Shown: positions 28,798 through 44,005 of the stretch, piece by piece
Numbering within the stretch: the first letter of the stretch is position 1
Layout of the letters: each line of letters opens with the position of its first letter
Virus record (IMG/VR): IMGVR_UViG_3300009182_000114
Span: 1-44,031 of that record
Length of the DNA: 44,031 nt
DNA from: a virus
Direction: 5' to 3' (one strand)
Made by a program: the position numbers and the translations under genes
Notes under the pieces: generated by a model
Seen by the model: only the letters and a program-made list of their open reading frames with translations
Told to the model about the DNA's origin: nothing
Database searches by the model: none

Positions 28798-28810
28798 TAA
28801 TTATATCAGG
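28798..28810 (-). promoter_or_regulatory. CCTGATATAATTA promoter (copy 1)
   Basis: Exact 13-base element on the minus strand; TATAAT ends 30 bases before ATG 28769. The leader lacks the AACGACGAAAGGA motif and has GGGGAGGAG instead. Confidence 0.78.
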
Positions 28811-28833
28811 TAGGGGGAGGAGAACTCCAAACG

Positions 28834-29004
28834 TTACGCCCTTTGGGCCAGGAGACCCATAGTTACGCCTGCCAAGGCAAGAGTTAGTGCCTCTATCGGC
28901 CTCTCAGGGCGTGTGAAGGCCAGGATAAGCGCGAGCAGGGTAAATACCGTAGCACCTACGGCTGGCCACACCAAATCGCGTAGGCGTGAGAATAGATCTG
29001 GCAT
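28834..29004 (-). CDS. 56-aa two-helix membrane protein
   Basis: Found by reading the gap: MPDLFSRLRDLVWPAVGATV, a hydrophobic stretch FTLLALILAF, a short TRPERPIEA turn, then LTLALAGVTMGLLAQRA. Two membrane segments and small size fit a holin-like protein, but many phage membrane proteins look like this and the lysin is 1.4 kb downstream. ATG 29004 is 7 bases after the stop of the HTH gene. Confidence 0.6.
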   Translation of the reverse strand: MPDLFSRLRDLVWPAVGATVFTLLALILAFTRPERPIEALTLALAGVTMGLLAQRA

Positions 29005-29010
29005 GTTAAC

Positions 29011-29310
29011 CTACTTTACCGGGCGTGTTCGGCCCTTGAGGCGGGTTGAGGCATCACGAATGGTTGTTCCTGATGCGTCAATGAGCTTGCGAGCCTTACC
29101 GTAGGTAACGCCTAGTTCCTTAGCTACTTCGACGACTGGCATACCCTTTGCGTATAGCTGGGCAGCAGCTTGTGGTGTTACATCTGTCATGCTGTTTCCT
29201 TTCGTCATTTCGGCTGGCGGTTCTTCCGCAAGCCAGGCACGAGACCTCACGATGAGATCCCTTGCCTCGTTGAGTAACTGCAGCTGCGAGCTACCCAAAG
29301 TTATCGACAT
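29011..29310 (-). CDS. small HTH protein with two possible starts
   Basis: 99 aa from ATG 29310, or 59 aa from ATG 29190. The HTH is VVEVAKELGVTYGKARKLID, followed by a basic tail. ATG 29310 overlaps the end of the upstream zinc gene by 10 bases, suggesting coupling. ATG 29190 is preceded by ATGACGAAAGGAAACAGC, the start-associated motif of neighbouring genes. Both forms may be made. The N-terminal extension is a plausible helix (LNEARDLIVRSRAWLAE). Confidence 0.65.
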   Translation of the reverse strand: MSITLGSSQLQLLNEARDLIVRSRAWLAEEPPAEMTKGNSMTDVTPQAAAQLYAKGMPVVEVAKELGVTYGKARKLIDASGTTIRDASTRLKGRTRPVK

Positions 29311-29465
29311 GTTGAACAGTAGTTTCCAACACGTATGTTTTTCATTGCGATGTCATAGACCTTGCCGCAATGATGACACGCTACCTTTATCAAGTCTCCG
29401 CGTTTAGGCTCACGCTTCTTAAGCTTAGGAATGTTTGGTAATGGAATCCTTATGGTGATAATCAT
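29301..29465 (-). CDS. 54-aa zinc-ribbon protein
   Basis: Read from the gap: MIITIRIPLPNIPKLKKREP, KRGDLIKVACHHCGKVYDIA, then NYCSTCR at the end. Two CxxC knuckles 17 residues apart suggest a zinc ribbon. ATG 29465 overlaps the upstream TGA as ATGA, and its own end overlaps the next ATG. No family assigned. Confidence 0.68.
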   Translation of the reverse strand: MIITIRIPLPNIPKLKKREPKRGDLIKVACHHCGKVYDIAMKNIRVGNYCSTCR

Positions 29466-29782
29466 TTTGTTTCATCGCCTCCTGGAGCTGTAGCCTTGAA
29501 CGCACGGTACGTAGCCGTATCAGCTGGGAGAAATCCATCGTCCGCGTGACATGAGAAACAGAGATACTCGTTGCGTCGATGCGACGGGTCACGAACTACC
29601 TTGTCATGTTTTCCGCATCGGTCGCAGATCGGGTCCTTTGGTTTAGTGCGAGCCCACTCGCGATAGCAGTAGGCACAGATCAAGTTATCAGCCGCGTTGT
29701 AGATAAGAACGTTGTCTTCGTTGCACGTTACACATGTACCGTAGACATAGAGCTTGTCACGCTGTATGGTTCCTTGTGTCAT
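29462..29782 (-). CDS. 106-aa protein with four Cys knuckles
   Basis: Four CxxC pairs (CVTCN, CAYCYREW, CDRCGKHDKVVRD, CFSCHADDGF) suggest two zinc-binding units of HNH or zinc-ribbon style, without HNH catalytic residues that I can identify. AGGATCTAATT precedes ATG 29782. It is the first gene of a coupled run of small zinc and HTH genes. Confidence 0.7.
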   Translation of the reverse strand: MTQGTIQRDKLYVYGTCVTCNEDNVLIYNAADNLICAYCYREWARTKPKDPICDRCGKHDKVVRDPSHRRNEYLCFSCHADDGFLPADTATYRAFKATAPGGDETK

Positions 29783-29817
29783 AATTAGATCCTAATCCTT
29801 TTACCTGAACTTGTAAA

Positions 29818-30078
29818 CTAGTCTACTTGACTTTCTAGAACACGCATTTTTCGTGGTCCGTATTGTGAGGTAGGTAGTCCAATGTTAATAGATACCTGAC
29901 AGTCGATGTAGTCGGTGTGTCGAGCTGAGATCCTGAGGTTACCCTTAGCCTTTAGTCCAAGGTTCACGAACTCGATGTCCTGTGGGTTGTAGATGTAGTG
30001 ACCGCAGGAGATGCAGACCTCAAACGTGTTGTCGTCTCTGCGACGAGGCACGCGCTCGTCCTTTGCTATGAACTTCAT
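29818..30078 (-). CDS. 86-aa hypothetical protein with one CxxC
   Basis: MKFIAKDERVPRRRDDNTFE, then CISCGHYIYN and a beta-rich C-terminal half (KGNLRISARHTDYIDCQVSI). Only one clear CxxC plus one extra Cys. AAGGACAAGCG precedes ATG 30078, which overlaps the upstream stop as ATGA. Confidence 0.66.
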   Translation of the reverse strand: MKFIAKDERVPRRRDDNTFEVCISCGHYIYNPQDIEFVNLGLKAKGNLRISARHTDYIDCQVSINIGLPTSQYGPRKMRVLESQVD

Positions 30079-30230
30079 CGCTTGTCCTTAGGCTTTACCA
30101 CGCCGAGGATTGGCTGGATCTTAATAATTGACTTTCGGTACTGGTAGTACTTGTATCCAACGATGGAGGCAAGTGCCAGTGCCGCTACTACTAGGTGACC
30201 CCAGGTGAGGTCGAAGCTGACATGTATCAT
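30075..30230 (-). CDS. 51-aa single-pass membrane protein
   Basis: Read from the gap: MIHVSFDLTWGHLVVAALAL, then ASIVGYKYYQYRK and a basic tail ending KPKDKR. One membrane helix with a positive cytoplasmic tail. ATGA overlaps at both ends tie it to its neighbours. Confidence 0.66.
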   Translation of the reverse strand: MIHVSFDLTWGHLVVAALALASIVGYKYYQYRKSIIKIQPILGVVKPKDKR

Positions 30231-30460
30231 TTGGTTCCTCTCAATGAACGCTCTGCGATTTCATCTAACGATGCTGCAAGTAAAAGGGCTGGGAAGCAGC
30301 CAACGATTGCTGATAGAACTGCTGCCGCTAAGCTAAGCCAGCGCGGTCCTGCTAGAAAAATCATTGCTGAGATGAAGAGCCATGAGGCTGCAAGTACTTT
30401 CATTCCCGCTGCGTAGCGGCGGAATCGGTAGACCTTGTCTGTCTTGTATGTAATCTTCAT
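30227..30460 (-). CDS. 77-aa two-helix membrane protein
   Basis: ATG 30460 is preceded by ATGACGAAAGGACTAAC and preferred over an upstream in-frame start. Two hydrophobic segments (MKVLAASWLFISAMIFLAG and SLAAAVLSAIVGCFPALLLA) flank a short turn; ends are charged. Function unknown. It heads the run of coupled genes going left to 29,818. Confidence 0.7.
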   Translation of the reverse strand: MKITYKTDKVYRFRRYAAGMKVLAASWLFISAMIFLAGPRWLSLAAAVLSAIVGCFPALLLAASLDEIAERSLRGTK

Positions 30461-30502
30461 GTTAGTCCTTTCGTCATTCACCGTGGGGTTTCGGTGATAG
30501 GT

Positions 30503-30515
30503 TAATTATAACAGG
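30503..30515 (-). promoter_or_regulatory. CCTGTTATAATTA promoter (copy 2)
   Basis: Exact element with T at the variable base; TATAAT ends 44 bases before ATG 30460. It lies 5 bases beyond the stop of the next upstream gene. Confidence 0.78.
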
Positions 30516-30519
30516 TAAA

Positions 30520-30726: not shown

Positions 30727-30760
30727 TTATTTCCTTTCGTCGTTTTGGGTGGGGGAAGGC

Positions 30761-30778
30761 GGGGAGCCGAAGCTCCCC
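30761..30778 (-). terminator. UUCG-tetraloop hairpin upstream of the 68-aa gene
   Basis: On the minus strand GGGGAGC-TTCG-GCTCCCC is a 7-bp stem closed by C(UUCG)G, one of the most stable RNA tetraloops. Flanking GGGTGGGG and CCCCACCC can pair in an alternative longer structure. No U tract follows. Confidence 0.55.
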
Positions 30779-30787
30779 ACCCTTTTA

Positions 30788-31034: not shown

Positions 31035-31047
31035 TAATTATAACAGG
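31035..31047 (-). promoter_or_regulatory. CCTGTTATAATTA promoter (copy 3)
   Basis: TATAAT ends 42 bases before ATG 30994. Confidence 0.76.
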
Positions 31048-31271: not shown

Positions 31272-31284
31272 TAATTATAACAGG
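31272..31284 (-). promoter_or_regulatory. CCTGTTATAATTA promoter (copy 4)
   Basis: TATAAT ends 31 bases before ATG 31242. Confidence 0.76.
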
Positions 31285-31563: not shown

Positions 31564-31782
31564 TTACTCTCCTAGTCCGAACATCTCTGTCCAACATTTT
31601 GGGTGGTACCCAGTTTTTAATTGTTCACGCTTGGGTTTTGGCATCTCAGGGAATGCATCTTGAATGAGCATACCGCTTGTCCAAGCTTCGTAACCTCGAG
31701 CATCAACCTCAAGGGAGTCTGATAAACCGCACCATGAACATGGTGGAGTTTCTACAAGATAGATTTCATTTTCCAGAGCCAT
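31564..31782 (-). CDS. 72-aa zinc-binding hypothetical
   Basis: CSWCGLSD near the N-terminus and HPKCW near the C-terminus suggest a single zinc site. Between them is YEAWTSGMLIQDAFPEMP. ATG 31782 follows AACGACGAAAGGATAATC. First gene of a three-gene unit with the 34-aa and 59-aa genes. Confidence 0.7.
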   Translation of the reverse strand: MALENEIYLVETPPCSWCGLSDSLEVDARGYEAWTSGMLIQDAFPEMPKPKREQLKTGYHPKCWTEMFGLGE

Positions 31783-31806: not shown

Positions 31807-31819
31807 TAATTATAACAGG
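31807..31819 (-). promoter_or_regulatory. CCTGTTATAATTA promoter (copy 5)
   Basis: TATAAT ends 26 bases before ATG 31782, the shortest spacing among copies with a Shine-Dalgarno that drive an intact gene. Confidence 0.78.
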
Positions 31820-31823: not shown

Positions 31824-32420
31824 CTACTCGTCTTTTAGCTGAGCTAGGACCGTGAACGGTCCACCTGAGCCGGAGTCTAGTTTAGCTCCAATGGCTAGGG
31901 ATTCCTTTACTATTTCTTTAGCCGTATCAACGGTGAGCTTTCCCTTAGCTGGAAGATACGCATAGAGAGCTCCAATGGCGTAGTCACCACCAGTTCCCAT
32001 ACCGTATAGACCAGTCGCATCTTTAACCCAGGCGTAATCCTCGCCGAGCTCGTAGATAGTTCCATTGACAACAACAAGAATCATTGAACCTTGTGATGCA
32101 GCTTCTTTTGTTTCTGGTCCAAGAGTTCTATCCGCGTATCCGTGGTCCTCGAAACATTTACGAAGAGCTGGCACGAAATCATTTGTAATGAATGCGTCGA
32201 GTTCACGACCGTATAAACCACTTGCGTCTGGTGGTGTGAACGTGTGTTCAAGAATGTTTATTGCACGCATGTCGCCTGCAGCACCAAATAAGTATTCGTC
32301 GTTAGCTACAATTTTTCCGTAACCCTTTGACATCGTATAGATACGACCTTCATCGGTGATACGTGAATCTGAACCTACGACTGCCCAGCCTGGTCCCTGC
32401 ACAGCAATTATTGTAGTCAT
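31824..32420 (-). CDS. HslV/proteasome beta-like Ntn-hydrolase peptidase
   Basis: 198 aa. MTTIIAVQGPGWAVVGSDSR is the classic N-terminus: after Met removal Thr is the nucleophile, Asp18 fits Asp17 of the family and Lys36 (YGKI) fits Lys33. LYGMGTGGDYAIGALYAYLP matches the GSGG-A-GA loop near Ser129. Length is close to HslV (~175-200 aa). HslV needs the unfoldase HslU and the proteasome needs Mpa/ARC; no such partner is seen nearby. It may degrade host or phage proteins, or be structural (inference). GAGAGGACGCCA precedes ATG 32420. Promoter lies within an inverted repeat. Confidence 0.85.
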   Translation of the reverse strand: MTTIIAVQGPGWAVVGSDSRITDEGRIYTMSKGYGKIVANDEYLFGAAGDMRAINILEHTFTPPDASGLYGRELDAFITNDFVPALRKCFEDHGYADRTLGPETKEAASQGSMILVVVNGTIYELGEDYAWVKDATGLYGMGTGGDYAIGALYAYLPAKGKLTVDTAKEIVKESLAIGAKLDSGSGGPFTVLAQLKDE

Positions 32421-32482: not shown

Positions 32483-32818
32483 TTAGACTAAATCTACAAT
32501 TGAGGTAGGTACCACAATCTCTGAGGAGACCACCTCACCGTTAGGAAGATACTTGGCAAATCGACCTACAGGTACGTCGAGTTTGACAACAATCTTCTTT
32601 TGGCGAATGCCAACAACCTTACCTGTATGTCCGATAACATACCGCGTGCCACAGGAATCATTGAAGCGAACTGAGTCGCCGATACCGAAGTCACGGGTGG
32701 TTTGGGTTGCGCGAACCTTCTTCATTCTTGCGTCTACTGCGTCCTTGACTTTAACCAGGTCCTTGTCTAGGATTCCTGAGTCTAGGGCCGCTTGAACTGC
32801 CTCTAGGGTCATGTCCAT
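32483..32818 (-). CDS. 111-aa protein with KOW-like segment
   Basis: Helical N-terminus (MDMTLEAVQAALDSGILDKD) and a beta-barrel-like half: FGIGDSVRFNDSCGTRYVIG, then HTGKVVGIRQKKIVVKLD, similar to KOW or SH3-like modules seen in the head proteins here. RNA or protein binding is possible. ATG 32818 follows AACGACGAAAGGACACCAA. Confidence 0.66.
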   Translation of the reverse strand: MDMTLEAVQAALDSGILDKDLVKVKDAVDARMKKVRATQTTRDFGIGDSVRFNDSCGTRYVIGHTGKVVGIRQKKIVVKLDVPVGRFAKYLPNGEVVSSEIVVPTSIVDLV

Positions 32819-32846: not shown

Positions 32847-32859
32847 TAATTATATCAGG
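32847..32859 (-). promoter_or_regulatory. CCTGATATAATTA promoter (copy 6), overlapping a stop codon
   Basis: TATAAT ends 30 bases before ATG 32818. The TGA of the upstream 47-aa zinc gene (32855-32857) is the TG of the extended -10. Confidence 0.78.
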
Positions 32860-33802: not shown

Positions 33803-34153
33803 TTAGGCAAGTCCTGCTCTAACAAGAACATCCTCGCGACTCTTTGGAGAAACTCCAAGAAGTTTGGCAACGAGTTCTACCGCGCGAAACTTACTTCCAC
33901 CGATGTTCCAGTCAATTCGCTCGTTCATCGCTGGGGTTCCAAGTTCGTATCTCTTCCAGTCATAGATCTCTGCGTCTGTTCCATCCGCAAAGCGAATACA
34001 CCAAGATACGGTGAGTTTTCCATCACCTGAGAAATCTACAACAGATGAGTCAAACGTTGGTTCTCCAAATACCTTTTCAATCTCTGCTCGGGTTACATCG
34101 AAGATGTATCCCATGAGGCTTCCGCCTGCAGTTGTGTCGTGTATGAAATCCAT
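33803..34153 (-). CDS. 116-aa conserved phage protein
   Basis: MGYIFDVTRAEIEKVFGEPT, VSWCIRFADGTDAEIYDWKR, then IDWNIGGSKFRAVELVAKLL. I recall similar sequences in actinophage accessory regions; no function known to me. ATG 34153 follows GGAGAAGGAA. First of a five-gene unit that ends in the 47-aa zinc gene. Confidence 0.68.
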   Translation of the reverse strand: MDFIHDTTAGGSLMGYIFDVTRAEIEKVFGEPTFDSSVVDFSGDGKLTVSWCIRFADGTDAEIYDWKRYELGTPAMNERIDWNIGGSKFRAVELVAKLLGVSPKSREDVLVRAGLA

Positions 34154-34182
34154 TTCCTTCTCCTATCGTTTCGTCGTTGGTA

Positions 34183-34195
34183 TAATTATATCAGG
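34183..34195 (-). promoter_or_regulatory. CCTGATATAATTA promoter (copy 7)
   Basis: TATAAT ends 31 bases before ATG 34153. The leader contains AACGACGAAACGATAGGAG, a lengthened form of the start-associated motif. Confidence 0.78.
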
Positions 34196-34327: not shown

Positions 34328-34340
34328 TAATTATATCAGG
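34328..34340 (-). promoter_or_regulatory. CCTGATATAATTA promoter (copy 8), leaderless type
   Basis: TATAAT, then TATCCT, then ATG 34323. The 6-base spacing places the transcription start at the start codon. Confidence 0.75.
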
Positions 34341-34392: not shown

Positions 34393-34731
34393 TTAGTCTT
34401 CTACTATTTCTTTTAGATTATCAAACCACTCATCAAAGATTTCTTGGTATTCATCTGACCATGTATCTATGTCTGTGGTGGTTATGGTTTCTTGACCATC
34501 AACATATTCATTATTTTCTATTGATAGTGAGTGGTACTTATTGTCTGAAGTCTTAAGAATGTATGAAGACCACTCGTCACTTGGGTCTACAACAACTGCT
34601 GCTACATTTGTAGGTATGATGTATGGTAGGTTTTGATCTTTTAATACATCTACTAGGTGTTCAACTGTTGATGAATACATTGGGTTTTGTAGGAGGTTAC
34701 TAAAGAGACCTTCAATTTTGTTTGAGTTCAT
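34393..34731 (-). CDS. 112-aa acidic hypothetical, AT-rich
   Basis: MNSNKIEGLFSNLLQNPMYS, then VDVLKDQNLPYIIPTNVAAV and a Glu/Asp/Trp-rich C-terminus (WSDEYQEIFDEWFDNLKEIV). Third positions are visibly more AT-rich than neighbours, which suggests recent acquisition. ATG 34731 follows TTGGATTCCAA. The very acidic tail could mimic nucleic acid, but no homologue is recognised. Confidence 0.63.
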   Translation of the reverse strand: MNSNKIEGLFSNLLQNPMYSSTVEHLVDVLKDQNLPYIIPTNVAAVVVDPSDEWSSYILKTSDNKYHSLSIENNEYVDGQETITTTDIDTWSDEYQEIFDEWFDNLKEIVED

Positions 34732-34773: not shown

Positions 34774-34786
34774 TAATTATATCATA
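34774..34786 (-). promoter_or_regulatory. variant promoter with ATGATATAATTA
   Basis: The same TGATATAATTA core preceded by TA instead of CC; TATAAT ends 44 bases before ATG 34731. Confidence 0.7.
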
Positions 34787-35177: not shown

Positions 35178-35190
35178 TAATTATATCAGG
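35178..35190 (-). promoter_or_regulatory. CCTGATATAATTA promoter (copy 9), overlapping a stop codon
   Basis: TATAAT ends 44 bases before ATG 35135. TGA 35186-35188 of the upstream gene supplies the TG. Confidence 0.78.
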
Positions 35191-35599
35191 CAGGTTGGTT
35201 GAGAGCGCCCATAATGTCTTCCCTTGAGAAAACTTTTACACTTGATAAGGCACCGCGTTCAATTTCCTTTGAACCGTATGCCCAGCTCGTTGCGTCCCCA
35301 AAGAACGAGGCACTGTGGTCAGCACCAGGAGACCAGAGCTTCCTCGTGGTTAGCCGCGTATCAATTTCCCACACGTACACATAGTCATGGGGAACTAGGT
35401 TCACGATTGGACCGATCTCTGAATCCATCGTGCCGTGCACGTGGTCAAGGACGCGGAACCACATGAAGGTGAGAGCGTGGGCTACTGTTTCAGCCGCATA
35501 GATTTCTCCCCAGTTAGATTTCAATCCCTCTGCGTTTATGTCACCAAACACGCACTCAGGCGCACAGTGATAAAGATATCTTGGCATCTTGTTACTCAT
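35186..35599 (-). CDS. ART/KptA-fold-like hypothetical protein
   Basis: 137 aa. PRYLYHCAPECVFGDINAEG followed by IYAAETVAHALTFM resembles the N-terminal half of ADP-ribosyltransferase-fold proteins such as RNA 2'-phosphotransferases (Tyr-His-x-x-x, Glu-Gly-Leu, Ile-Tyr-x-x-Thr). DYVYVWEIDTRLTTRKLWSP and a C-terminal VKVFSREDIMG complete it. Catalytic residues are not certain, so this is a fold-level guess. ATG 35599 overlaps the stop of the 52-aa gene. Confidence 0.55.
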   Translation of the reverse strand: MSNKMPRYLYHCAPECVFGDINAEGLKSNWGEIYAAETVAHALTFMWFRVLDHVHGTMDSEIGPIVNLVPHDYVYVWEIDTRLTTRKLWSPGADHSASFFGDATSWAYGSKEIERGALSSVKVFSREDIMGALNQPA

Positions 35600-35750
35600 C
35601 TACTGCCTCCCGCATCGCGTTACGTTTCTTATCTCCTCGAGAACGATTTCTCTTGGTTCCTTTGTGTGCAAAGATCGAGACACGCTGGTTCAGCTTCGGG
35701 CCAGAGGTTCCTCTGATGAGCCGTAGCAGCGGGTTCTTGTTCTTGTTCAT
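35592..35750 (-). CDS. 52-aa basic protein, predicted leaderless
   Basis: Read from the gap: MNKNKNPLLRLIRGTSGPKL, then SIFAHKGTKRNRSRGDKKRN. Strongly basic, likely nucleic-acid binding. ATG 35750 is 6 bases after TATAAT with no Shine-Dalgarno. Confidence 0.62.
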   Translation of the reverse strand: MNKNKNPLLRLIRGTSGPKLNQRVSIFAHKGTKRNRSRGDKKRNAMREAVDE

Positions 35751-35754: not shown

Positions 35755-35767
35755 TAATTATAACAGG
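35755..35767 (-). promoter_or_regulatory. CCTGTTATAATTA promoter (copy 10), leaderless type
   Basis: TATAAT, TAGCTT, ATG 35750. Same 6-base spacing as at 34328, with the T variant. Confidence 0.75.
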
Positions 35768-35826: not shown

Positions 35827-36126
35827 TTAGGCAGCTTTAGCTTTAACCTTTGTGAAAGTTTTCTTGCCGCGACGAATCGCAGACATAGTTTGTGATGCTT
35901 CCTTAGTCGAAGCAACCTGCATCTTCTCTCCTGTCGAGGTATTGAAGATAACATAGTGCGAGCGATCTGCCGCACGTAGTACAGCTAGCGTCTTACGCTT
36001 GCGGAAGTACGCTGGGGTGTAGCCGTTTGGAAGCTTTACGCCTTTAGGAAGCTCAGGAAGAGCTTCAGTGCGTTGATAAGGCTTCGCCCGAACGACTACC
36101 TTAGGGGTAGTGTTTTTAGTAGCCAC
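35827..36126 (-). CDS. 99-aa basic hypothetical protein
   Basis: GTG 36126 after a leader with GACGAAAGGACAGG. MATKNTTPKVVVRAKPYQRT, LPNGYTPAYFRKRKTLAVLR, then HYVIFNTSTGEKMQ and a Lys/Ala tail. High positive charge suggests DNA or RNA binding. Separate promoter and terminator make it a single-gene unit. Confidence 0.68.
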   Translation of the reverse strand: MATKNTTPKVVVRAKPYQRTEALPELPKGVKLPNGYTPAYFRKRKTLAVLRAADRSHYVIFNTSTGEKMQVASTKEASQTMSAIRRGKKTFTKVKAKAA

Positions 36127-36149: not shown

Positions 36150-36320
36150 TTAATGCACCGCAGGCGACTTGCTTGCGGACTGATCTATTATAACAAGGTT
36201 CTTCCTGAAAAGTACAATCAGGAGAAGTCTGCCGTAATAGCCAATGATAAATCTAAGAGCGCCGATCTCGCCGTCACTGTAGCGGCCCGTGGTCTCCATC
36301 ATTCCTTCGTGTAGACTCAT
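36150..36320 (-). CDS. 56-aa membrane protein
   Basis: ATG 36320 overlaps the upstream TAA (TAATG). MSLHEGMMETTGRYSDGEIG, then a hydrophobic ALRFIIGYYGRLLLIVLF segment. Its C-terminal codons contain the promoter of the next gene. Confidence 0.6.
   Translation of the reverse strand: MSLHEGMMETTGRYSDGEIGALRFIIGYYGRLLLIVLFRKNLVIIDQSASKSPAVH
36187..36198 (-). promoter_or_regulatory. variant promoter TTGTTATAATAG within a coding region
   Basis: Extended -10 TGTTATAAT with TATAAT 60 bases before GTG 36126, located inside the 56-aa gene. Confidence 0.65.
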
Positions 36321-36571: not shown

Positions 36572-36822
36572 ATTTCCTCCCAGTATTTTGGATGTACGGA
36601 GTCGTAATCATACTCACCGTCTGGATACTTTGTAAAAAAGTCTGTAGGTCGACCAAGGCGAACCCACACCGTGATGCGCTTAGCCATCTCCACCCGTGAG
36701 TTGTCATTGGTCTCCATGATGATGTCAAAATCAGACTGTTCCCACCGATCGGTTTCAATCAGCTGGATGTTTGACGCGTCGCCAAAGTTGCCGTCCTCGG
36801 CAAAGTAATGTACCTGTGTCAT
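36568..36822 (-). CDS. 84-aa acidic hypothetical protein
   Basis: MTQVHYFAEDGNFGDASNIQ, MAKRITVWVRLGRPTDFFTK, then an Asp/Tyr-rich end. The start and the upstream stop overlap as ATGA. Second gene of a five-gene coupled unit. Confidence 0.64.
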   Translation of the reverse strand: MTQVHYFAEDGNFGDASNIQLIETDRWEQSDFDIIMETNDNSRVEMAKRITVWVRLGRPTDFFTKYPDGEYDYDSVHPKYWEEI

Positions 36823-37062: not shown

Positions 37063-37075
37063 TAATTATAACAGG
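37063..37075 (-). promoter_or_regulatory. CCTGTTATAATTA promoter (copy 11)
   Basis: TATAAT ends 33 bases before ATG 37031. It begins 5 bases past the stop of the DUF7455-like gene. Confidence 0.78.
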
Positions 37076-37307: not shown

Positions 37308-37503
37308 CGATGTCCTCCCACTCCGTAATGAATCGTGCCTCAAAGTCTTCAATCGGACGCTTGAGTCCGAGGTGTGCCATCTGAAGGTATCTCTCAACGT
37401 CCGCACGCTTGCGTGCCCGAAACTTAGAGATACGTTCGCCCGTGTAGACGTCAACGATTTCCCAGACGCCCGCTGATGCGTTCTTCTTTCTAGTCGCCGA
37501 CAT
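37285..37503 (-). CDS. 72-aa hypothetical protein
   Basis: MSATRKKNASAGVWEIVDVY, then TGERISKFRARKRADVERYL and an acidic C-terminus. Mixed charge and short length; a nucleic-acid-binding helix is possible. It overlaps the upstream stop by 14 bases and the next start by 23 bases. Confidence 0.62.
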   Translation of the reverse strand: MSATRKKNASAGVWEIVDVYTGERISKFRARKRADVERYLQMAHLGLKRPIEDFEARFITEWEDIDANTNQA

Positions 37504-37867
37504 AGATGTGAACCTCGCCCGCTCTTGCCGATGCTAGCTTTGCCGCTAGCTCTTGGAGCTGGGTAACCCATGCTTGTGACAGTGGGTGGTTGTATCCGTC
37601 ATCGTCCGGAGCGCCGGTGACAACGATGTTGCCCATGATGACGTCCGTCATGCCGAATGCCTTCTCCCAAAGATGCGTGCCGATGATGTTTGGTTCCATA
37701 CCGTTGATGAGCTTGCCCTCTTCGTTCACCCAGATGGTGAGGTCGTCCCGCAGGTCGACACATTGAATGAGTCCGCCAACCGCATCGCGCAGTTGCTCGT
37801 AGCTCTCAGTCTCGAGGTCAAGGACCTCGGTGGTGAAGTCGGTGTTGATGCGTAGTGCCGTCTTCAC
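37490..37867 (-). CDS. DUF3846-family protein
   Basis: 125 aa with GTG start overlapping the upstream TGA. YEQLRDAVGGLIQCVDLRDD, then IWVNEEGKLINGMEPNIIGT and DVIMGNIVVTGAPDDDG match DUF3846, common on phages, plasmids and mobile elements and of unknown function. Often linked with antirestriction genes in other genomes (family knowledge). Confidence 0.83.
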   Translation of the reverse strand: MKTALRINTDFTTEVLDLETESYEQLRDAVGGLIQCVDLRDDLTIWVNEEGKLINGMEPNIIGTHLWEKAFGMTDVIMGNIVVTGAPDDDGYNHPLSQAWVTQLQELAAKLASARAGEVHIYVGD

Positions 37868-38036: not shown

Positions 38037-38049
38037 TAATTATATCAGG
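38037..38049 (-). promoter_or_regulatory. CCTGATATAATTA promoter (copy 12), containing a stop codon
   Basis: TATAAT ends 28 bases before ATG 38010. The TAA inside TATAAT (38040-38042) is the stop of the 83-aa gene. Confidence 0.79.
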
Positions 38050-38291
38050 TGGGTTTTACTGATCTCCTGTGCCATCCGCTTTAGCTCCTCGTCACTTGTC
38101 GGGTTTGCCGCAAGAACGGTAAGCGAGTGGACGAGCATCTTTAGCTCGTTCCCATCCAGTTCTATCACGTACTCATTAAGAAGTTTGTCGACCTGGTCTG
38201 CAAACTTCTCCGGGTTATCACGTGTAGCTCTAGCCAGTGTCACTAAAGCCACGGCGGCAGTGAAGCCTGCCGGGTGTTCGAGCTTTGTCAT
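38040..38291 (-). CDS. 83-aa helical hypothetical protein
   Basis: ATG 38291 overlaps the upstream TAA (TAATG). MTKLEHPAGFTAAVALVTLA, then KFADQVDKLLNEYVIELDGN and a helical end. Predicted all-alpha; unknown family. It shares the transcript with the Myb-like gene. Confidence 0.64.
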   Translation of the reverse strand: MTKLEHPAGFTAAVALVTLARATRDNPEKFADQVDKLLNEYVIELDGNELKMLVHSLTVLAANPTSDEELKRMAQEISKTHLI

Positions 38292-38572
38292 TACATCTCG
38301 CAATCGCATTTAGTAAGCCAGCATTGTGGGCAGGCTTGGACTTGTGGGGCAGGGGTTGTTTGCTTTCTTGCCTTGGTGAGCCCGTTGGCTCCAAGATAAG
38401 TTTGGACGGCATAGTAGGTACGCCCAAGAATAATTGCAATGTCGGTGACTGAAACGTTAGCCTCACGGAGATCTTTTAGCTTATTGATCTCTGTAATGGT
38501 CCACTCGTTTCCAGCGGACACTGCAGCAAGGAGGGTAAAGTTTTGGTACTGGTGCTGGTATTCATTATGCAT
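38291..38572 (-). CDS. Myb/SANT-like DNA-binding protein with C-terminal Cys cluster
   Basis: 93 aa from ATG 38572, which follows GGATTGGAGATCCAT. NEWTITEINKLKDLREANVS, then VTDIAIILGRTYYAVQTYLG matches a Myb-like or GcrA-like HTH (Trp at start, LGRTYxAV recognition helix). C-terminus ACPQCWLTKCDCEM may bind zinc. Probably a small regulator. Confidence 0.72.
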   Translation of the reverse strand: MHNEYQHQYQNFTLLAAVSAGNEWTITEINKLKDLREANVSVTDIAIILGRTYYAVQTYLGANGLTKARKQTTPAPQVQACPQCWLTKCDCEM

Positions 38573-38599
38573 ATGGATCTCCAATCCGGTTCGTTAGGA

Positions 38600-38612
38600 T
38601 AATTATATCAGG
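38600..38612 (-). promoter_or_regulatory. CCTGATATAATTA promoter (copy 13)
   Basis: TATAAT ends 29 bases before ATG 38572. The leader is of the GGATTGGAGATCC type. Confidence 0.79.
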
Positions 38613-38933: not shown

Positions 38934-38959
38934 TCCGTATCCTTCCGTCGTTGTGTGTA

Positions 38960-38989
38960 GTGTGACTGGGTCTTTCGACCCAGTCACAC
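38960..38989 (-). terminator. 13-bp GNRA hairpin
   Basis: GTGTGACTGGGTC-GAAA-GACCCAGTCACAC on the minus strand, a perfect 13-bp stem with a GAAA tetraloop. No U tract follows; 19 bases later comes the next start-associated motif. Possible terminator, processing site or 5' stabiliser. Confidence 0.65.
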
Positions 38990-39034
38990 CGTAGTGCACT
39001 TTTGGAACTCGAGCCACGTACTCCGACCTAAGCC

Positions 39035-39238
39035 TCACTTGCCGAACAAGAAGAGAGCGACTCTTCCGCTAACGTTCGGTAGACTGTTGACTAGGTCTGT
39101 GCCCTCCGCAACTGCGACCTGCGCCGCATACCCACCACGCCTCAAGGCGCTAGGGAACTCTTCATCCTGATTGCCCTTCTCCGGAGTACTCTGCCAGAAG
39201 CAGAACCGTTATGGTCGGTCAGGAATCCGTTCCTCCAT
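39035..39238 (-). pseudogene. interrupted 67-codon ORF with in-frame TAA at codon 10
   Basis: ATG 39238 reads MEERIPDRP, then TAA at 39209-39211, then 57 sense codons RFCFWQSTPEKGNQDEEFPS, LRRGGYAAQVAVAEGTDLVN and VSGRVALFLFGK to TGA 39035. The downstream part reads as a natural protein, but no ATG, GTG or TTG with a Shine-Dalgarno restores it. An alternative CTG (39223) after GGAGGA is out of frame with it. The unit has an exact promoter, 18 bases before ATG. Likely a decayed gene, a recent frameshift or nonsense, or programmed read-through. Confidence 0.6.
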
Positions 39239-39254
39239 ATTTAGTTTGTTAGGA

Positions 39255-39267
39255 TAATTATATCAGG
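39255..39267 (-). promoter_or_regulatory. CCTGATATAATTA promoter (copy 14), overlapping a stop codon
   Basis: TATAAT ends 18 bases before ATG 39238 of the interrupted ORF. TGA 39263-39265 of the upstream gene lies in the element. Confidence 0.77.
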
Positions 39268-39598: not shown

Positions 39599-39949
39599 TT
39601 AGAGAGTCTTGATGAATGTGTAGGGTGTTGATACCAATGTTGCGTCGTAAGCTTCTGGGAAAGCAGACTGTAGAACCTTACGGTCAATCTTGGAATTTGA
39701 TGAGTGAGCAAGCTTGAAGCGTTCCACTCCGCGGATTACTCCGACTTCAGCGTCTCCGAGAAGAACGCGAAGACGAGCTTCAGCTTCTTCCTTTTGAGTT
39801 TCAAGGGCCTTGATGGCTTCCTTTGCAGCGATGAACTTTGCCAAAGCCTTTTCAGCATCTGTAGCTGTAAGGTCAATGACGGGTGTTGCGATTGTTGCAG
39901 TCGTTGCAGTTGTTACTGTTGTGACTGCGGATGATGTCTTTGTAGACAT
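39599..39949 (-). CDS. 116-aa coiled-coil hypothetical protein
   Basis: ATG 39949 with ATGACGAAGGGACACCAA. Thr/Ala-rich N-terminus, then a helical KALAKFIAAKEAIKALETQK-EEAEARLR segment, LLGDAEVGVIRGVERFKLAH and TPYTFIKTL end. The helix followed by a GDAEVG strand resembles small phage proteins near recombination genes (for example YqaJ-linked), but none of those genes is seen here. Confidence 0.62.
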   Translation of the reverse strand: MSTKTSSAVTTVTTATTATIATPVIDLTATDAEKALAKFIAAKEAIKALETQKEEAEARLRVLLGDAEVGVIRGVERFKLAHSSNSKIDRKVLQSAFPEAYDATLVSTPYTFIKTL

Positions 39950-40000
39950 TTGGTGTCCCTTCGTCATTTTCACCGGAACCGGTTGGTTTCGATGTTAGGA

Positions 40001-40013
40001 TAATTATATCAGG
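40001..40013 (-). promoter_or_regulatory. CCTGATATAATTA promoter (copy 15)
   Basis: TATAAT ends 53 bases before ATG 39949, a long leader containing ATGACGAAGGGACACC. Confidence 0.77.
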
Positions 40014-40074: not shown

Positions 40075-41859
40075 TTAGGCTGCCGTTCTAGCGGTAACCT
40101 TGGTTAGCGCCTGGGCTGCAGCCTTTCCGATTTCGGTGGCTGCCGTAGCAGGGTTCATGTCGCCCTCTAGGACGACACCATCGGTGTTCTGTAGAATATG
40201 GCGAGGTTGGTATGAGTGGTCGAATGGGAGCCACAGAACTGCAACGCCCATGTCGTGGCAACGCTTCATCCAATGCTTTGCCTTCTCTGTCTCCTCCGGA
40301 GTGTAGCACCCATCACTTACAACTACAAGTAAGCGAGCGCCGCGCCCATGCAAGAGATTTAGTGAACCGTCTAAAGCTTTGAACGCCTTGTTGAACTTTT
40401 CAGTTCCATCAGGTGCAGTGTAGACATTTACCTCAGGAAGGTGTTGCCCTGCCTTGAGTGTTGGGAATACATCTGAACCGTAGTACACCATCGCTGCGCG
40501 TCCTTGAACTCGACGAACCGCTTCACTCATAACCCAGGCAGTCACTGCCATTGGTTGCATAGCAGAACTCATTGAACCTGAGATGTCTACCATCACGCCA
40601 ACAGTAAGTGTTGGGTCCTCGGTGTGCTTACGAACAGTGCGCTTCCAAGGTTCTGTGGTTGCCATCGCACCCTTTGCCTTTAGAGCAGCAGCTTGAACTG
40701 CAGCGCGGGTGTTCAACTTTCCTGGAGGAAGCATTGATGATACCTCGACTGCATCACGCTCACGATACTTTGCACGTTCTAGCATTGTTGCAACCTTTAC
40801 GGCTGCCGCGCGCTCTGGTCCAGTTGGCATGCGCTTCTCTGAGAGACGTGAACCTGTCTTTGTAAAAGGTTGTGGGCCAGTGCCACGAGAGAATACATCG
40901 ACTGCAGTGTCCTTGTGGTCCTTAGCTTCTTTTGATTCGCTAGCTTTTGTCTTAGCGATTTCCTGCCACTCTTCAGTTGTCTGTTGGTCATCAACATCTT
41001 CCTGTGCATTGATACCGCATACCTCGGCAGCATCTGCTAAAGCGTCAAGTAGATCTTCAATAAACTGTTGTCCTGCTTCATCAGGAGTTCCTCCCTCTGT
41101 TTCACCACGCTCTGTGGCAGCATCCTCAACAAGCTTTGCCCACTCCTTTGCAAGTTCATAGAGTGGCTCAGAGTTGTAGTGGATGTCGTGCATTTGGAAG
41201 CGACCCCACACTGAGCGAAGTTTGACAAGTAGGTCCTCGCCAATAAACTCCTCAAGTAGTTCTGCAAGTTCCTCAACGTCCTCACGCTCTAGAACGTCAG
41301 CGTCAAGGCGAGCAAGTGTAAGCGCAGCAAGATGCGCTGCCGCACGAGTAGATGAAAGTTCTTTTAAGTTTTCGCGGGCATCTGCAAGTACGATGTCAAG
41401 AGCACAGGAACGAAGGAACGCACGATTTTGTGGAGTCTCTGTGACGCCATGTGCTTCGATTCGTGATTCCTCAAGGATACTGATCGCGTGGAACTCAGCT
41501 TTGCTTAGCTCTGCGTTCGCTTTTGCAAGATCCCATCGTGAGTACTTGGCATGTAATGCCTCGTGGAAGATCGCACCTGAGGCGCGAGGAAAGTCGAATT
41601 GTGTTTCACGTAGTGTGATGTCGCCAATTTGTTCAGGGGTTACACCCTTTCCAAAAGCAATGTCAACGTTTACCTCAACCTCAGCAAGTGGTGGGTTGAA
41701 GCAGGCTGGTGCGTCTCCTCCAGCTCCGGGTCCAACGTAGGCAACGATGTCTGAGCGTCCTGCCCATTCGTTTACTAGTCGACCAAGCTGGGCTCCGGTG
41801 CGTAGCCACTCCGGTGGAGTTGCCGCAGCGCGGGTACCTTCGATCTTGATGTGAGCCAT
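40075..41859 (-). CDS. VWA-domain protein with HExxH metallopeptidase-like motif (CobT/MoxR-partner type)
   Basis: 594 aa from ATG 41859, which follows ATGACGGAAGGAAACCAA. Residues ~95-110 contain SGAIFHEALHAKYSRW (H99, E100, H103) and SILEESRIEAHG near 127-137, the arrangement of a zinc metallopeptidase with a third acidic ligand. The centre is acidic and charged. Residues ~418-590 are a VWA domain: GVMVDISGSMSSAM with the metal site D425-S427-S429 and VVVSDGCYTPEE. VWA proteins of this sort work with MoxR AAA+ ATPases to insert cofactors or remodel targets (established for CbbQ/CbbO, NorQ/NorD). Its partner is the next gene upstream. Substrate unknown. Confidence 0.85.
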   Translation of the reverse strand: MAHIKIEGTRAAATPPEWLRTGAQLGRLVNEWAGRSDIVAYVGPGAGGDAPACFNPPLAEVEVNVDIAFGKGVTPEQIGDITLRETQFDFPRASGAIFHEALHAKYSRWDLAKANAELSKAEFHAISILEESRIEAHGVTETPQNRAFLRSCALDIVLADARENLKELSSTRAAAHLAALTLARLDADVLEREDVEELAELLEEFIGEDLLVKLRSVWGRFQMHDIHYNSEPLYELAKEWAKLVEDAATERGETEGGTPDEAGQQFIEDLLDALADAAEVCGINAQEDVDDQQTTEEWQEIAKTKASESKEAKDHKDTAVDVFSRGTGPQPFTKTGSRLSEKRMPTGPERAAAVKVATMLERAKYRERDAVEVSSMLPPGKLNTRAAVQAAALKAKGAMATTEPWKRTVRKHTEDPTLTVGVMVDISGSMSSAMQPMAVTAWVMSEAVRRVQGRAAMVYYGSDVFPTLKAGQHLPEVNVYTAPDGTEKFNKAFKALDGSLNLLHGRGARLLVVVSDGCYTPEETEKAKHWMKRCHDMGVAVLWLPFDHSYQPRHILQNTDGVVLEGDMNPATAATEIGKAAAQALTKVTARTAA

Positions 41860-41891
41860 TTGGTTTCCTTCCGTCATTTGTACTGATGGGA

Positions 41892-41904
41892 TAATTATAT
41901 CAGG
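41892..41904 (-). promoter_or_regulatory. CCTGATATAATTA promoter (copy 16)
   Basis: TATAAT ends 34 bases before ATG 41859, giving the VWA gene its own promoter separate from the AAA+ gene. Confidence 0.79.
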
Positions 41905-41915
41905 TGCCCCAGTTT

Positions 41916-41943
41916 GGAGGGTAGGCACCCATACCTACCCTCC
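41916..41943 (-). terminator. 10-bp hairpin after the MoxR-like gene
   Basis: GGAGGGTAGG/CCTACCCTCC perfect 10-bp stem with an 8-base loop, 21 bases past the stop. No U tract. Confidence 0.6.
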
Positions 41944-41963: not shown

Positions 41964-42947
41964 CTAGATCTTGGCTGGTCGGCAGTCTTCGCCGAACGCC
42001 CTAGTGAACACGTCCGCAACGACGGGGCGGTCGAGTTCAGGCGACGCGGCGAGTAAGTTCGCGATTGCGAACTTGGTGCCGAAGTCTTTTGCAATGTCGC
42101 GGAAGGCAAGGAGCTCACGCATTTGTGGAGCCCATGAGGTTTCACCTGCCAGTTGCTTCTTTGCAAGATTTTGTGCAGCGGTAACGATTGTTGTTGGAGC
42201 ACCAAGCTTACGAGCAAGTGTCCAGTCAGTGGTCATCTCTGCTTGAAGTACGAAGCGAGATAGAAGAGCTTCCGATAGTCGAACTCCGGGAGCGTTTGGG
42301 TTGGTTGCTGCAATTACGTAGAACCCATCTTTTGCTTTGACAGTTCCACGCTCTGGGTTTGCAGTGACTGTGTACTCCTTGGTTCCGTCCATCAGAGAGT
42401 AAGTTCCTGCTAGAACCTTTGGATCAACGAGACCGACCTCGTCGATGAAGAGTGGCTTACCTTCCTCGGCAGCACGAAGTAGTGGACCATCGACCCACTC
42501 GTATCCACCTGAAGGTGTTTGGATGTATCCGCCAATGAAGTCTGAAAGTTCAGTGTCTCCTGTACCGAGAACTGTTTCAACCTCATCGAGGAAGGCTGCT
42601 TGGACAAGTGCTGTCTTACCGCAACCGGGTGAACCGTAGATAAGAATTGGTTGGTTATTAGTGCGCGCCTTGCGAAGAACCTGCACGTCATCGTGCTCGC
42701 CCCACTTACGTGCAAAGTAGTACTCGCCATTTGGTCGAATGTACTTCTCTTCACCAAGCATTGCGTCAGCAGAGATCACAGGGACAACTTTCTTTGGAGC
42801 GGCAGTTCGGGCAGTTGCTCTTCCAGGTGCTGGCATGAGCGCATCAAGCTTCGAACCTAGTTCGGAGTTGACGCTCTGGGTTGTGACGCCTAGTAAGGCA
42901 TCTGTCAATCCAGGGTACAACTTATCGTACTCTGAAGTTTCCATCAT
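41964..42947 (-). CDS. MoxR/CbbQ-type AAA+ ATPase
   Basis: 327 aa. Walker A GSPGCGKTAL (residues ~105-114), Walker B PLFIDEVGL (~165-173), sensor-1 AATNPNAPG and arginine finger LLSRFVLQ define a MoxR-clade AAA+ protein. The ~80-residue N-terminal extension is low complexity. ATG 42947 or the adjacent ATG follows AACGACGAAAGGAAGTA. The VWA gene follows after its own promoter. The pair is expected to form a chaperone-like complex (inference from family). Confidence 0.88.
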   Translation of the reverse strand: MMETSEYDKLYPGLTDALLGVTTQSVNSELGSKLDALMPAPGRATARTAAPKKVVPVISADAMLGEEKYIRPNGEYYFARKWGEHDDVQVLRKARTNNQPILIYGSPGCGKTALVQAAFLDEVETVLGTGDTELSDFIGGYIQTPSGGYEWVDGPLLRAAEEGKPLFIDEVGLVDPKVLAGTYSLMDGTKEYTVTANPERGTVKAKDGFYVIAATNPNAPGVRLSEALLSRFVLQAEMTTDWTLARKLGAPTTIVTAAQNLAKKQLAGETSWAPQMRELLAFRDIAKDFGTKFAIANLLAASPELDRPVVADVFTRAFGEDCRPAKI

Positions 42948-42983
42948 TACTTCCTTTCGTCGTTTGGCTGGGTGGCCGTAGGA

Positions 42984-42996
42984 TAATTATATCAGG
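42984..42996 (-). promoter_or_regulatory. CCTGATATAATTA promoter (copy 17), overlapping a stop codon
   Basis: TATAAT ends 38 bases before ATG 42947. TGA 42992-42994 of the upstream 153-aa gene supplies the TG. Confidence 0.79.
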
Positions 42997-43453
42997 CGAA
43001 TAGAGACTCGCCGAAGTTTAGAGCGCGGCGGCAACGAGTGATGCGACCGAGAATTTTGTAAGGAGTCTTACCTTGGCGGATATCTTGCATATCCTCAGGG
43101 GTTACCTCAACTGCAATTGGTTGCTTGTACAACGTGTAACCTTTTGCGATGAGCTGGTTGAACAGGTTGTTTGTAAATGAGATGCGATCTGGGAACGTAG
43201 CTTTTGCGTGGTCAGTTCCAAGTTGTAGAATTGCCCCAGATGATGAGTCAACTTCACTGATAGTACTTGAAGCGATTGCGCGCCATGATCTACGTGGTGT
43301 TGCCGCAGAGATACTTCTACGGTAGCATGTCATTGGCACTGTCTTACCTGCAATGGACGTTAGTCCCTCAGGGGTAATGATAACCTGAGTTGTTTGGGAA
43401 CCGGACCTCAATTCGAGATACAGCGCCTTTCCGACAACTGATGTGTTTGTCAT
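42992..43453 (-). CDS. 153-aa hypothetical protein
   Basis: MTNTSVVGKALYLELRSGSQ, YRRSISAATPRRSWRAIASS, FTNNLFNQLIAKGYTLYKQP, then KILGRITRCRRALNFGESLF. Basic and mixed alpha/beta; no family recognised. AACGACGGAAAGGACACACCC precedes ATG 43453. Directly upstream of the MoxR/VWA pair, so a functional link is possible. Confidence 0.68.
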   Translation of the reverse strand: MTNTSVVGKALYLELRSGSQTTQVIITPEGLTSIAGKTVPMTCYRRSISAATPRRSWRAIASSTISEVDSSSGAILQLGTDHAKATFPDRISFTNNLFNQLIAKGYTLYKQPIAVEVTPEDMQDIRQGKTPYKILGRITRCRRALNFGESLFA

Positions 43454-43490
43454 GGGTGTGTCCTTTCCGTCGTTTGGTGGTGCGTTGGGA

Positions 43491-43503
43491 TAATTATATC
43501 AGG
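43491..43503 (-). promoter_or_regulatory. CCTGATATAATTA promoter (copy 18)
   Basis: TATAAT ends 39 bases before ATG 43453. TTGACT at 43515-43520 lies 16 bases upstream of TATAAT, a partial -35 that other copies lack. Confidence 0.8.
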
Positions 43504-43665
43504 TCAGTCTTCAGAGTCAATAGGGTAAAGGTAATTGCCTAGGTCAATGTCAAGTCCTGTTTTGATTAGGACCTCACCGTTCTCGTAGACAACCTTTGCT
43601 GTGGGAAGTCTCTCCGCCATGTACTCGCGAAGATGATCAAGAGTTTCTACCTCGGCGATCTTCAT
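43504..43665 (-). CDS. 53-aa acidic hypothetical protein
   Basis: ATG 43665 overlaps the upstream stop as ATGA; a longer frame to 43749 is rejected for lack of a Shine-Dalgarno. MKIAEVETLDHLREYMAERL, then ENGEVLIKTGLDIDLGNYLY. Small helix-strand protein, unknown family. Confidence 0.65.
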   Translation of the reverse strand: MKIAEVETLDHLREYMAERLPTAKVVYENGEVLIKTGLDIDLGNYLYPIDSED

Positions 43666-43958
43666 GCGTTCACCGTAACGTAGACGTCCTTGCGACGAAG
43701 TGCCGCGGATGTTGTGACGAACCCTGGAGAGCATGGACACATTGAGCATCCTGCGTTTCGGTTCCAGCTTAGTTGAATGTCCTCATAGCCAAGTTCAGCT
43801 AGAGCTGCAGTCGCGTATGCGCGCCACACCTTGATTGGACGGTTGCGTCGATTTTGTAAGTTCTCAAGAATTGTTTCATCAGCGATTGAAACGTAGATGC
43901 GTCCTTTGTCCGCACGCTCGTTCCAGCTGCGTGTTCTTACTTGGGTGTTCAGGTTCAT
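43662..43958 (-). CDS. 98-aa hypothetical with CxxCxC motif
   Basis: MNLNTQVRTRSWNERADKGR, PIKVWRAYATAALAELGYED, then AGCSMCPCSPGFV and a beta end. The GCSMCPCSPGF segment is reminiscent of conserved actinophage proteins and could bind zinc or iron. AACGACGGAAGGAAAAGCCC precedes ATG 43958. Confidence 0.68.
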   Translation of the reverse strand: MNLNTQVRTRSWNERADKGRIYVSIADETILENLQNRRNRPIKVWRAYATAALAELGYEDIQLSWNRNAGCSMCPCSPGFVTTSAALRRKDVYVTVNA

Positions 43959-43992
43959 GGGCTTTTCCTTCCGTCGTTTGTTTGGTACTGGA

Positions 43993-44005
43993 TAATTATA
44001 TCAGG
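43993..44005 (-). promoter_or_regulatory. CCTGATATAATTA promoter (copy 19)
   Basis: TATAAT ends 36 bases before ATG 43958. The 26 bases to the right are probably the end of an upstream gene, whose stop (TGA or the TAA in TATAAT) would lie in the element, but the frame is not decidable. Confidence 0.78.

Follow-up and report, generated by a model that had tools for sequence, protein, structure and literature searches.

Among the known phage promoters closest to those described here are the middle and late promoters of Thermus phage P23-45, which lack a -35 element, carry TGn ahead of TATAAT and are used by the host sigma-A polymerase (PMC7403470). In that phage, gp39 favours extended -10 promoters by displacing sigma region 4, and elsewhere AsiA acts similarly (PMC7403470). 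We analysed a virus record of 44,031 bases (IMGVR_UViG_3300009182_000114, hereafter the window) in which the 13-base element CCTG[A/T]TATAATTA recurs, and compared it with related phage sequences. The element shares the P23-45 architecture and differs from it in having CC rather than TR before TG, in its ~20 near-identical copies and in its lineage-specific discriminators. We read the copies, with a probability of roughly 0.87, as promoters for the host housekeeping sigma-A polymerase, of the extended -10 type without a -35, one per short gene unit. The host polymerase would recognise the perfect extended -10 (TGnTATAAT) with no need of a -35, transcription would begin at an A 7 nt past TATAAT, and each copy would serve its own short unit among small non-structural genes; we infer that the copies fire, and that they do so before the structural genes. 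The basis in sequence is the number, placement and orientation of the copies, the lack of a -35, the pyrimidine-A step at the predicted start and the open reading frames (ORFs) that begin exactly on it.

Other described systems share single features with this array. The early and middle promoters of T4 are likewise many, dispersed and strongly matched to the host polymerase; the early ones keep UP and -35 elements, unlike the array here, and in the middle ones a phage box is joined to a host -10 (PMC2988021). The T4 MotA box is centred at -30, whereas a sister clade of phages (the box clade, below) has a box at -22 to -17; there is no T4-middle-type box in the window, where nothing is conserved upstream of -18. 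A factor-specific element on sigma-A polymerase is also found in mycobacterial sigma adaptation, where PafBC, with its -26 motif, sits between promoter DNA and sigma domain 4 (PMC11804915); the element compared here occurs only in the box clade and lies nearer the -10, and the candidate helix-turn-helix (HTH) factor has only about 70-90 aa. Repeated intergenic elements in the non-structural half of the genome are known from cluster K phages as start-associated elements (SAS) and ESAS (PMC3203893). ESAS contain putative SigA promoters with inverted repeats, and their consensus varies by subcluster (PMC3203893, PMC11373665); they have -35 and -10 hexamers and number seven in Adephagia, whereas the arrays here have no -35 and, when larger, 20-44 copies.

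The large terminase encoded in the window has a counterpart at 78% identity in Actinomycetia phage DSL-LC01, whose 129 kb were assembled from the metagenome of Dishui Lake (PMC10611076). Microbacterium phages (186-195 kb) follow at 61-63%, so the window is probably a fragment of a larger actinobacterial phage. The main text of the DSL-LC01 paper (PMC10611076) contains no word starting with 'promoter'. Among titles and abstract openings, a scope that left most subscription journals and all preprints outside, we met no description of such an array; the nearest listed case is a 50-bp motif that occurs five times in a Gordonia phage (PMC9671010).

A first-pass annotation of the window had counted 19 exact minus-strand copies between 28798 and 44005. 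A pattern search confirms both count and coordinates and adds one plus-strand copy that had been missed, for 20 exact matches in all (Table 1). The expected count is 0, with none in 100 dinucleotide shuffles of the window, which rules out a chance origin of the set. Of the several one- or two-base variants also claimed, there are none with one mismatch and only two (minus strand) and one (plus strand) with two mismatches; the set is nearly all-or-none. The looser pattern TGNTATAAT finds three further relatives on the minus strand, at 24832, 34784 and 36195, and a fourth match, on the plus strand at 34178, that lies across the minus-strand copy at 34183-34195. It is absent from both strands of window positions 1-24800. 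The first 24.8 kb hold the terminase, portal and more head genes, and 24.8-44 kb hold mostly small genes and the array. Single matches mean little by themselves: at least 120 IMG/VR stretches match CCTGATATAATTAT, nearly all of those listed with one match each. Isolated copies therefore turn up often by chance, and a signal can be read only from arrays of several.

Neighbouring minus-strand copies lie 145-1891 bases apart, about one per small unit, in line with the earlier proposal that almost every one- to five-gene unit has its own copy. With gene starts assigned by hand (the first ATG with a Shine-Dalgarno-like stretch, or an ATG at +1), 14 of the 19 copies on the minus strand are intergenic, as first described, and the other five reach into the very end of the preceding ORF (ends at 42992, 39263, 38040, 35186 and 32855, read by eye); in four of these five the TGA of CCTGA doubles as the upstream stop codon. 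Mechanically called ORFs with earlier GTG or TTG starts cross some copies, for example those at 41892, 40001, 37063 and 31272. The distance to the start codon, given earlier as mostly 26-53 bases, is 24-51 nt from the end of the 13-mer to the ATG at 16 of the 18 minus-strand sites with an assigned start, with predicted leaders of 20-47 nt, and 4 nt at the remaining two, which are predicted to be leaderless. At the 19th site (+1 at 39250) no such ORF follows; what begins there is a non-coding RNA.

This spacing bears on whether the copies could act in translation, as start-associated elements like the 13-bp SAS of cluster K phages, an explanation that would fit the similar length and copy number and the restriction to the non-structural half (PMC3203893). 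SAS typically lie 3-7 bp before the start codon, where the ribosome binds and far closer than most copies here, and contain AGGAG, which the 13-mer does not; a separate loose Shine-Dalgarno-like pattern follows 18 of the 19 copies, and one copy precedes a non-coding RNA. We consider a role of this kind extremely improbable. Intrinsic terminators between units number 25, against 18.4 expected (sd 5.0), which is not a significant enrichment, so that insulation of the units is unproven.

The description of the element as a textbook extended -10 holds for TGnTATAAT and for the missing -35, and not for the bases in front, which are CC where the textbook motif, which dispenses with a -35, is TRTG (PMC7403470). 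TG stands at -15/-14, one base ahead of the -10 hexamer, and CC at -17/-16 in all 20 copies, both by the definition of the pattern; CC is also the consensus of most of the relatives aligned, DSL-LC01 being an exception. The best match to TTGACA at a distance of 15-19 nt averages 2.42 of 6 over the 19 sites, compared with 2.91 over 2,000 random positions, and reaches at least 5 of 6 at one site only (the copy at 43491). A hidden -35 is thus ruled out, the match being below random; the low scores show that the element is absent, not that the promoters are active without it. An AT-rich upstream element is likewise ruled out (upstream AT 0.47 versus 0.51).

The start site had been proposed to lie about 7 bases after TATAAT, and a pyrimidine-A step is indeed found there across 228 distinct sites, which come from the window and 15 relatives (16 records, some closely related and hence not independent). 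At 7 nt past TATAAT, 182 sites have A and 8 have G, a purine in 190 of 228, and the preceding base is C or T in 215. These sites were chosen by an exact match to TGNTATAAT with enough flank, others being left out of the consensus and of the comparison of the window with G003 and G011 below. Alignment of the sites gives a conserved block, ACCTGaTATAATTAtCCTAt, from about -18 to +2, wider than the 13-mer that had been thought to be conserved alone; upstream of -18 nothing is conserved, the -35 region included. At three ORFs the ATG falls exactly on the predicted +1 (34323, 35750 and 24817), making them predicted leaderless genes, and the geometry of the promoter at 24817 recurs in relatives G003 and G011. 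The HTH protein of this last ORF has a Pfam Sigma70_r4 match over 24 residues (1.4e-8).

Table 1. Predicted promoters of the window, the structured RNA and its homologues
Feature	Position	Strand	Predicted +1	Associated feature
core CCTGATATAATTA	28798-28810	-	28793	would drive ORF 28206-28769
core CCTGTTATAATTA	30503-30515	-	30498	
core CCTGTTATAATTA	31035-31047	-	31030	
core CCTGTTATAATTA	31272-31284	-	31267	
core CCTGTTATAATTA	31807-31819	-	31802	would drive ORF 31564-31782
core CCTGATATAATTA	32847-32859	-	32842	before ORF 32483-32818, then HslV-like protease ORF 31824-32420
core CCTGATATAATTA	34183-34195	-	34178	would drive ORF 33803-34153
core CCTGATATAATTA	34328-34340	-	34323	+1 = A of ATG, 39-aa ORF (predicted leaderless)
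core CCTGATATAATTA	35178-35190	-	35173	overlaps TGA of ORF 35186-35599
core CCTGTTATAATTA	35755-35767	-	35750	+1 = A of ATG, ORF 35592-35750 (predicted leaderless)
core CCTGTTATAATTA	37063-37075	-	37058	
core CCTGATATAATTA	38037-38049	-	38032	
core CCTGATATAATTA	38600-38612	-	38595	would drive ORF 38291-38584
core CCTGATATAATTA	39255-39267	-	39250	at 5' end of structured RNA 38955-39251
core CCTGATATAATTA	40001-40013	-	39996	would drive ORF 39599-39973 (ATG used is within listed GTG ORF)
core CCTGATATAATTA	41892-41904	-	41887	would drive VWA-like ORF listed 40075-41928 (assigned ATG downstream of promoter)
core CCTGATATAATTA	42984-42996	-	42979	would drive AAA ATPase ORF 41964-42947
core CCTGATATAATTA	43491-43503	-	43486	would drive ORF 42992-43453; sole copy with good -35 match (TTGACT, 16 nt)
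core CCTGATATAATTA	43993-44005	-	43988	would drive ORF 43662-43958
core CCTGTTATAATTA	25998-26010	+	26015	would drive ORF ending 26281
TGATATAAT without CC	24824-24832	-	24817	+1 = A of ATG, HTH-protein ORF 24245-24817 ahead of terminase (predicted leaderless)
divergent promoter-like TGATATAAT (TATGATATAATTA)	34776-34784	-	34769	would drive ORF 34393-34731
divergent promoter-like TGTTATAAT then AGA	36187-36195	-	36180	would drive GTG ORF 35827-36126
structured non-coding RNA	38955-39251	-		5' end at most 1 base from promoter +1; hairpin at end
RNA homologue	L235 5884-6178			model search
RNA homologue	L262 1791-2085			model search
RNA homologue	L247 12171-12445			model search
RNA homologue	L267 9104-9378			model search

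Two probes were used to collect relatives. With the terminase, the best 80 of 462 relatives were kept and 40 of those loci compared, and the exact 13-mer is present in 16 of the 40 records and absent from 24. The second probe was the array block's AAA ATPase; here the best 80 of 119 loci, together with the window and DSL-LC01, gave 82 rows, representing 59 different proteins. Large records show where such arrays lie in longer genomes: ACCTGNTATAAT is present in six of the 12 records of 98-136 kb, and there the arrays are mostly confined to one block and one strand (G044, 19/19 on one strand, 63.6-78.4 kb; G046, 11/11, 75.2-90.2 kb; G051, 15/16, 89.6-104.6 kb; G045, 11/12, 14.7-30.1 kb). The exceptions are one stray copy in each of G045, G047 and G051 and one opposite-strand copy in each of G047 and G048.

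The sequence upstream of the -10 differs among these phages. Four or more CCTGNTATAAT are carried by 37 of the 82 rows. Another 16 rows group together as a single clade in the tree of the ATPase, whose deep branches are not resolved (SH-aLRT 89 for this clade, short of the 95 star level), and 15 of these have no CCTGNTATAAT and instead carry a hexamer, C[TC]NRRG, that ends 4 nt before TATAAT; the remaining one, L317, has the close variant CTAAAAG. This hexamer, which we call the box, comes in the sub-dialects CTAAAG, CTRGG(G) and CCAGAG. CCTGN and box words occur together in none of the 82 rows, and other upstream words are few (GTC.CTCC in three rows, TGTGG in one); 13 rows were relabelled by hand for the tree, and the mapping of dialects onto it is descriptive. 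The more distant relatives L333, L335, L336 and L325 have TATAAT sets with GTC.CTCC, or with TGTGG and a TTTG-like stretch near -35. The densest array seen is a box array, in G041 (116.8 kb, L350-L355), with 44 box promoters, all on the plus strand between 17.5 and 43 kb; G042 has 20 on one strand and one on the other.

Box and -10 are tightly coupled. The box precedes 24 of the 25 TATAAT in the DSL-LC01 array block, and 21/21 in L300, 15/15 in L302, 26/28 in L294, 27/31 in L284 and 18/20 in L273, falling to 5/6 in the L270 group and 7 of 10-12 in the L310 group, both with few TATAAT. The distance between box and TATAAT is constant in five of six records (13/13, 16/16, 15/15, 22/22 and 9/9) and nearly so in L273 (12/14). 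Conversely, 105 of the 107 forward-strand box words in six records precede a -10-like hexamer, TATAAT in 88 cases and another TANNNT in 17. Before the orthologous ATPase gene, box-type phages have a box and a -10-like sequence and the window has CCTGATATAAT, and many CCTG-type relatives have no promoter at that position.

That coupling, and the position of the copies at the heads of units with promoter geometry down to the +1, stand against the view that the sites are operators or stoperators, bound by a phage repressor as in cluster A mycobacteriophages, with their likeness to a -10 secondary. The resemblance to stoperators is real: these are asymmetric 13-bp sites, about 20-30 in number, oriented along transcription and with a lineage-specific consensus (PMC6550527), and the window has 19 nearly identical copies on the minus strand and one on the plus strand in 44 kb. 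Stoperators, however, lie mostly outside promoters, where they block elongation, and no repressor was identified in the window, none having been tested for. We regard this explanation as very unlikely and retain the reading as sigma-A promoters.

Discriminators vary by lineage as well. Among CCTG-type phages, the hexamer that separates TATAAT from +1 can read TATCCT or TAACNN, whereas G005 has AGATCT there and G003 has AGTACT. At orthologous promoters, defined as reciprocal best hits with 45-75% downstream protein identity (DSL-LC01 and pairs outside this range excluded), identity of the -6 to -1 hexamer is 0.61 within a dialect (n=205) and 0.36 across dialects (n=138), in a descriptive comparison whose pairs are not independent and whose A-type group (G003, G004, G005 and G031) was set after seeing the consensus. 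Downstream protein identity is equal in the two comparisons (57.4 within, 56.6 across), and the tetramer in front of TG is conserved to the same degree (0.73 and 0.75). The window and G003 share 13 orthologous promoters at an identity of 0.33, whereas copies inside each genome agree at 0.61-0.65; the window and G011, at the same protein distance, give 0.72. Low identity across dialects with high identity within genomes indicates that the flanks change together and not promoter by promoter. The first two discriminator bases are AG in G003 (20/22), G005 (21/23) and G004 (9/11) and TA in the window (18/20); the switch is imperfect, with these two bases mixed in G040 and G031. Since every position beyond TGnTATAAT is particular to a lineage and switches set-wide, the 13-mer is, to judge from these alignments, one dialect of a wider system and not a universal element. 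Each lineage keeps its own flanks at most copies around an invariant -10, at -6 to -1 and, in one clade, as C[TC]NRRG at -22 to -17.

Sets of this kind could also arise with nothing reading the flanks, if recombination among short repeats spread the best promoter through a genome and carried the flanks along as neutral passengers. This would account for the identical copies and the lineage-specific flanks with no factor needed. Still, we think it unlikely, since homogenisation stops at about -18 to +2: the 16 bases upstream of the four before TG are near chance within and across dialects (0.33 and 0.30), about 0.3 both within genomes and across distant orthologs, and the position of the box is nearly invariant. 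We know of no conversion tracts ~20 bp long at 20-44 sites.

Alternatively, the copies may be sigma-A promoters whose flanks are at the same time the operator of a repressor that shuts down the whole set at once. Such a double function would explain set-wide dialects, and DSL-LC01 has the inverted repeat GATTC...GAATC around its -10; before a small HTH gene both arms differ together, AGATC/GATCT replacing GATTC/GAATC. In the window's clade, however, a clear dyad is missing; several DSL-LC01 sites deviate in the left arm and keep GAATC on the right, and the site at 36653 has a changed right arm only; and rigid box spacing fits recognition together with the polymerase equally well. A combined promoter and operator is, in our judgement, rather unlikely. 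Under the preferred reading as promoters, the flanks may instead be read by a phage-encoded factor that sets timing, strength or exclusivity, a tentative hypothesis against which we would put the odds slightly.

Gene content offers candidates for such a factor. Among ORF families of G041, 14 are present in all three box-type and none of five CCTG-type records, several of them probably not genes, and one is regulator-like: a protein of about 70-90 aa encoded in the array block (DSL-LC01 37368-37592; locus L089 37320-37592), which we read as a candidate HTH protein and for which Pfam gives no match. It is the gene whose own promoter carries the altered arms, and it was found in seven of nine distinct box-clade phages. 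It was not found in the large CCTG-type records G044-G047 and G051 by profile search, nor, with the lower sensitivity of a single-sequence search, in G048 and four other-type records. The box phages all belong to one clade, so shared descent explains the association of this protein with the box as well as function does. The DSL-LC01 array block also encodes a WhiB protein (Pfam E 3e-20), and WhiB proteins bind sigma-A region 4.

A further observation concerns the structural module, where a giant ORF (11630-18655, minus strand) stands between portal and head-protease-like genes. In its product, a domain encoded at window positions 15101-15829 (minus strand) has R, S and ExE residues invariant in nine aligned sequences, and its predicted structure (pLDDT 80) has ADP-ribosyltransferase folds for all 50 PDB matches listed (best E 1.2e-6; TM to query 0.31-0.42). 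The stretch downstream of this domain is, as we take it, kinase-like in appearance. The giant protein might, speculatively, be an Alt-like injected enzyme, packaged or acting on the polymerase; the injected Alt of T4 is likewise an ADP-ribosyltransferase, one that makes some T4 early promoters more active (PMC2988021). Together with this domain, the WhiB protein points, without proving it, in the same direction as gp39 and AsiA, through which other phages exploit extended -10 promoters. A phage RNA polymerase of the multi-subunit type, virion-carried or other, was rejected, there being no DFDGD/DFDID-type motif in six frames of DSL-LC01 or in the 2341-aa protein of the window; that protein has no polymerase-family match in Pfam, PHROGs or PDB sequences, other polymerase types not having been sought, and one DKDGD stretch in its DSL-LC01 counterpart is not taken as a polymerase motif.

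Several observations weigh against the promoter reading or against a reader of its flanks. CC at -17/-16 differs from the TRTG favoured by known sigma factors, TR being absent ahead of TG. Conservation of the nine TGNTATAAT bases in relatives is built in by the choice of sites, although that at -18 to -16 and -6 to +2 is independent of it. Of the 82 rows, 25, in records of up to 136 kb, have no recognised array, so an array is not essential to such phages; six of these 25, classed by hand, have 6-10 TATAAT and no clear word. Two ACCTGTTATAAT sites lie outside the box array of DSL-LC01, which shows that CCTG does not belong to a single lineage. The small HTH protein was not found in two of the nine box-clade phages (the fragments L294 and L302), and it is present in G005, L308 and L314/315, three phages with CCTG arrays and no box. 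Finally, homogenisation of copies by recombination could yield set-wide flanks without a reader protein. The two ACCTGTTATAAT promoters of DSL-LC01 (L090 34347 and 49664, record positions 84347 and 99664) precede genes for a thymidylate kinase and a pyrimidine dimer glycosylase.

The array copy without an assigned ORF is predicted to drive a covarying non-coding RNA of ~295 nt, with 77 predicted pairs and a terminal hairpin. Compensatory changes occur at 16 of the 77 pairs among four sequences, two of them nearly alike, and a model of the RNA matches whole in five phages (84 sources), four of which were used to build it. In three of the five the RNA starts at the +1 of an array promoter, and the remaining two have no TGNTATAAT closer than 434 nt upstream. 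An Rfam scan of 24000-44031 (E<=1) gave no match for the RNA and three weak matches elsewhere. The folding energy of part of the window leader alone is uninformative (z -0.28), unlike the covariation. Indels that are not multiples of three rule out a protein reading of the 58-codon open stretch in this interval.

As a class, promoter arrays are ordinary phage biology, and strong ones were already known; what sets this one apart is the family-wide dialects around a fixed -10, with a rigidly placed box in one clade. They could amount to what may be called a promoter dialect, in which a family of freshwater actinophages would control its early block through an element at a fixed distance from an invariant -10 and read by a co-evolving factor, for instance the small early-block HTH protein, or WhiB on sigma-A, acting with the polymerase. 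This generalisation is doubtful at present. If it were true, related phages would switch the dialect of 20-44 promoters at once, and promoters would answer only to their own phage's factor. Dozens of related metagenome phages can be compared here, and their dialects over orthologous genes form a natural experiment on what keeps a promoter set in step, be it a protein that reads the flanks, gene conversion or selection for strength. For annotators of such genomes, in which many genes lack a name, the array marks likely transcription starts, likely leaderless genes and a probable non-coding RNA.

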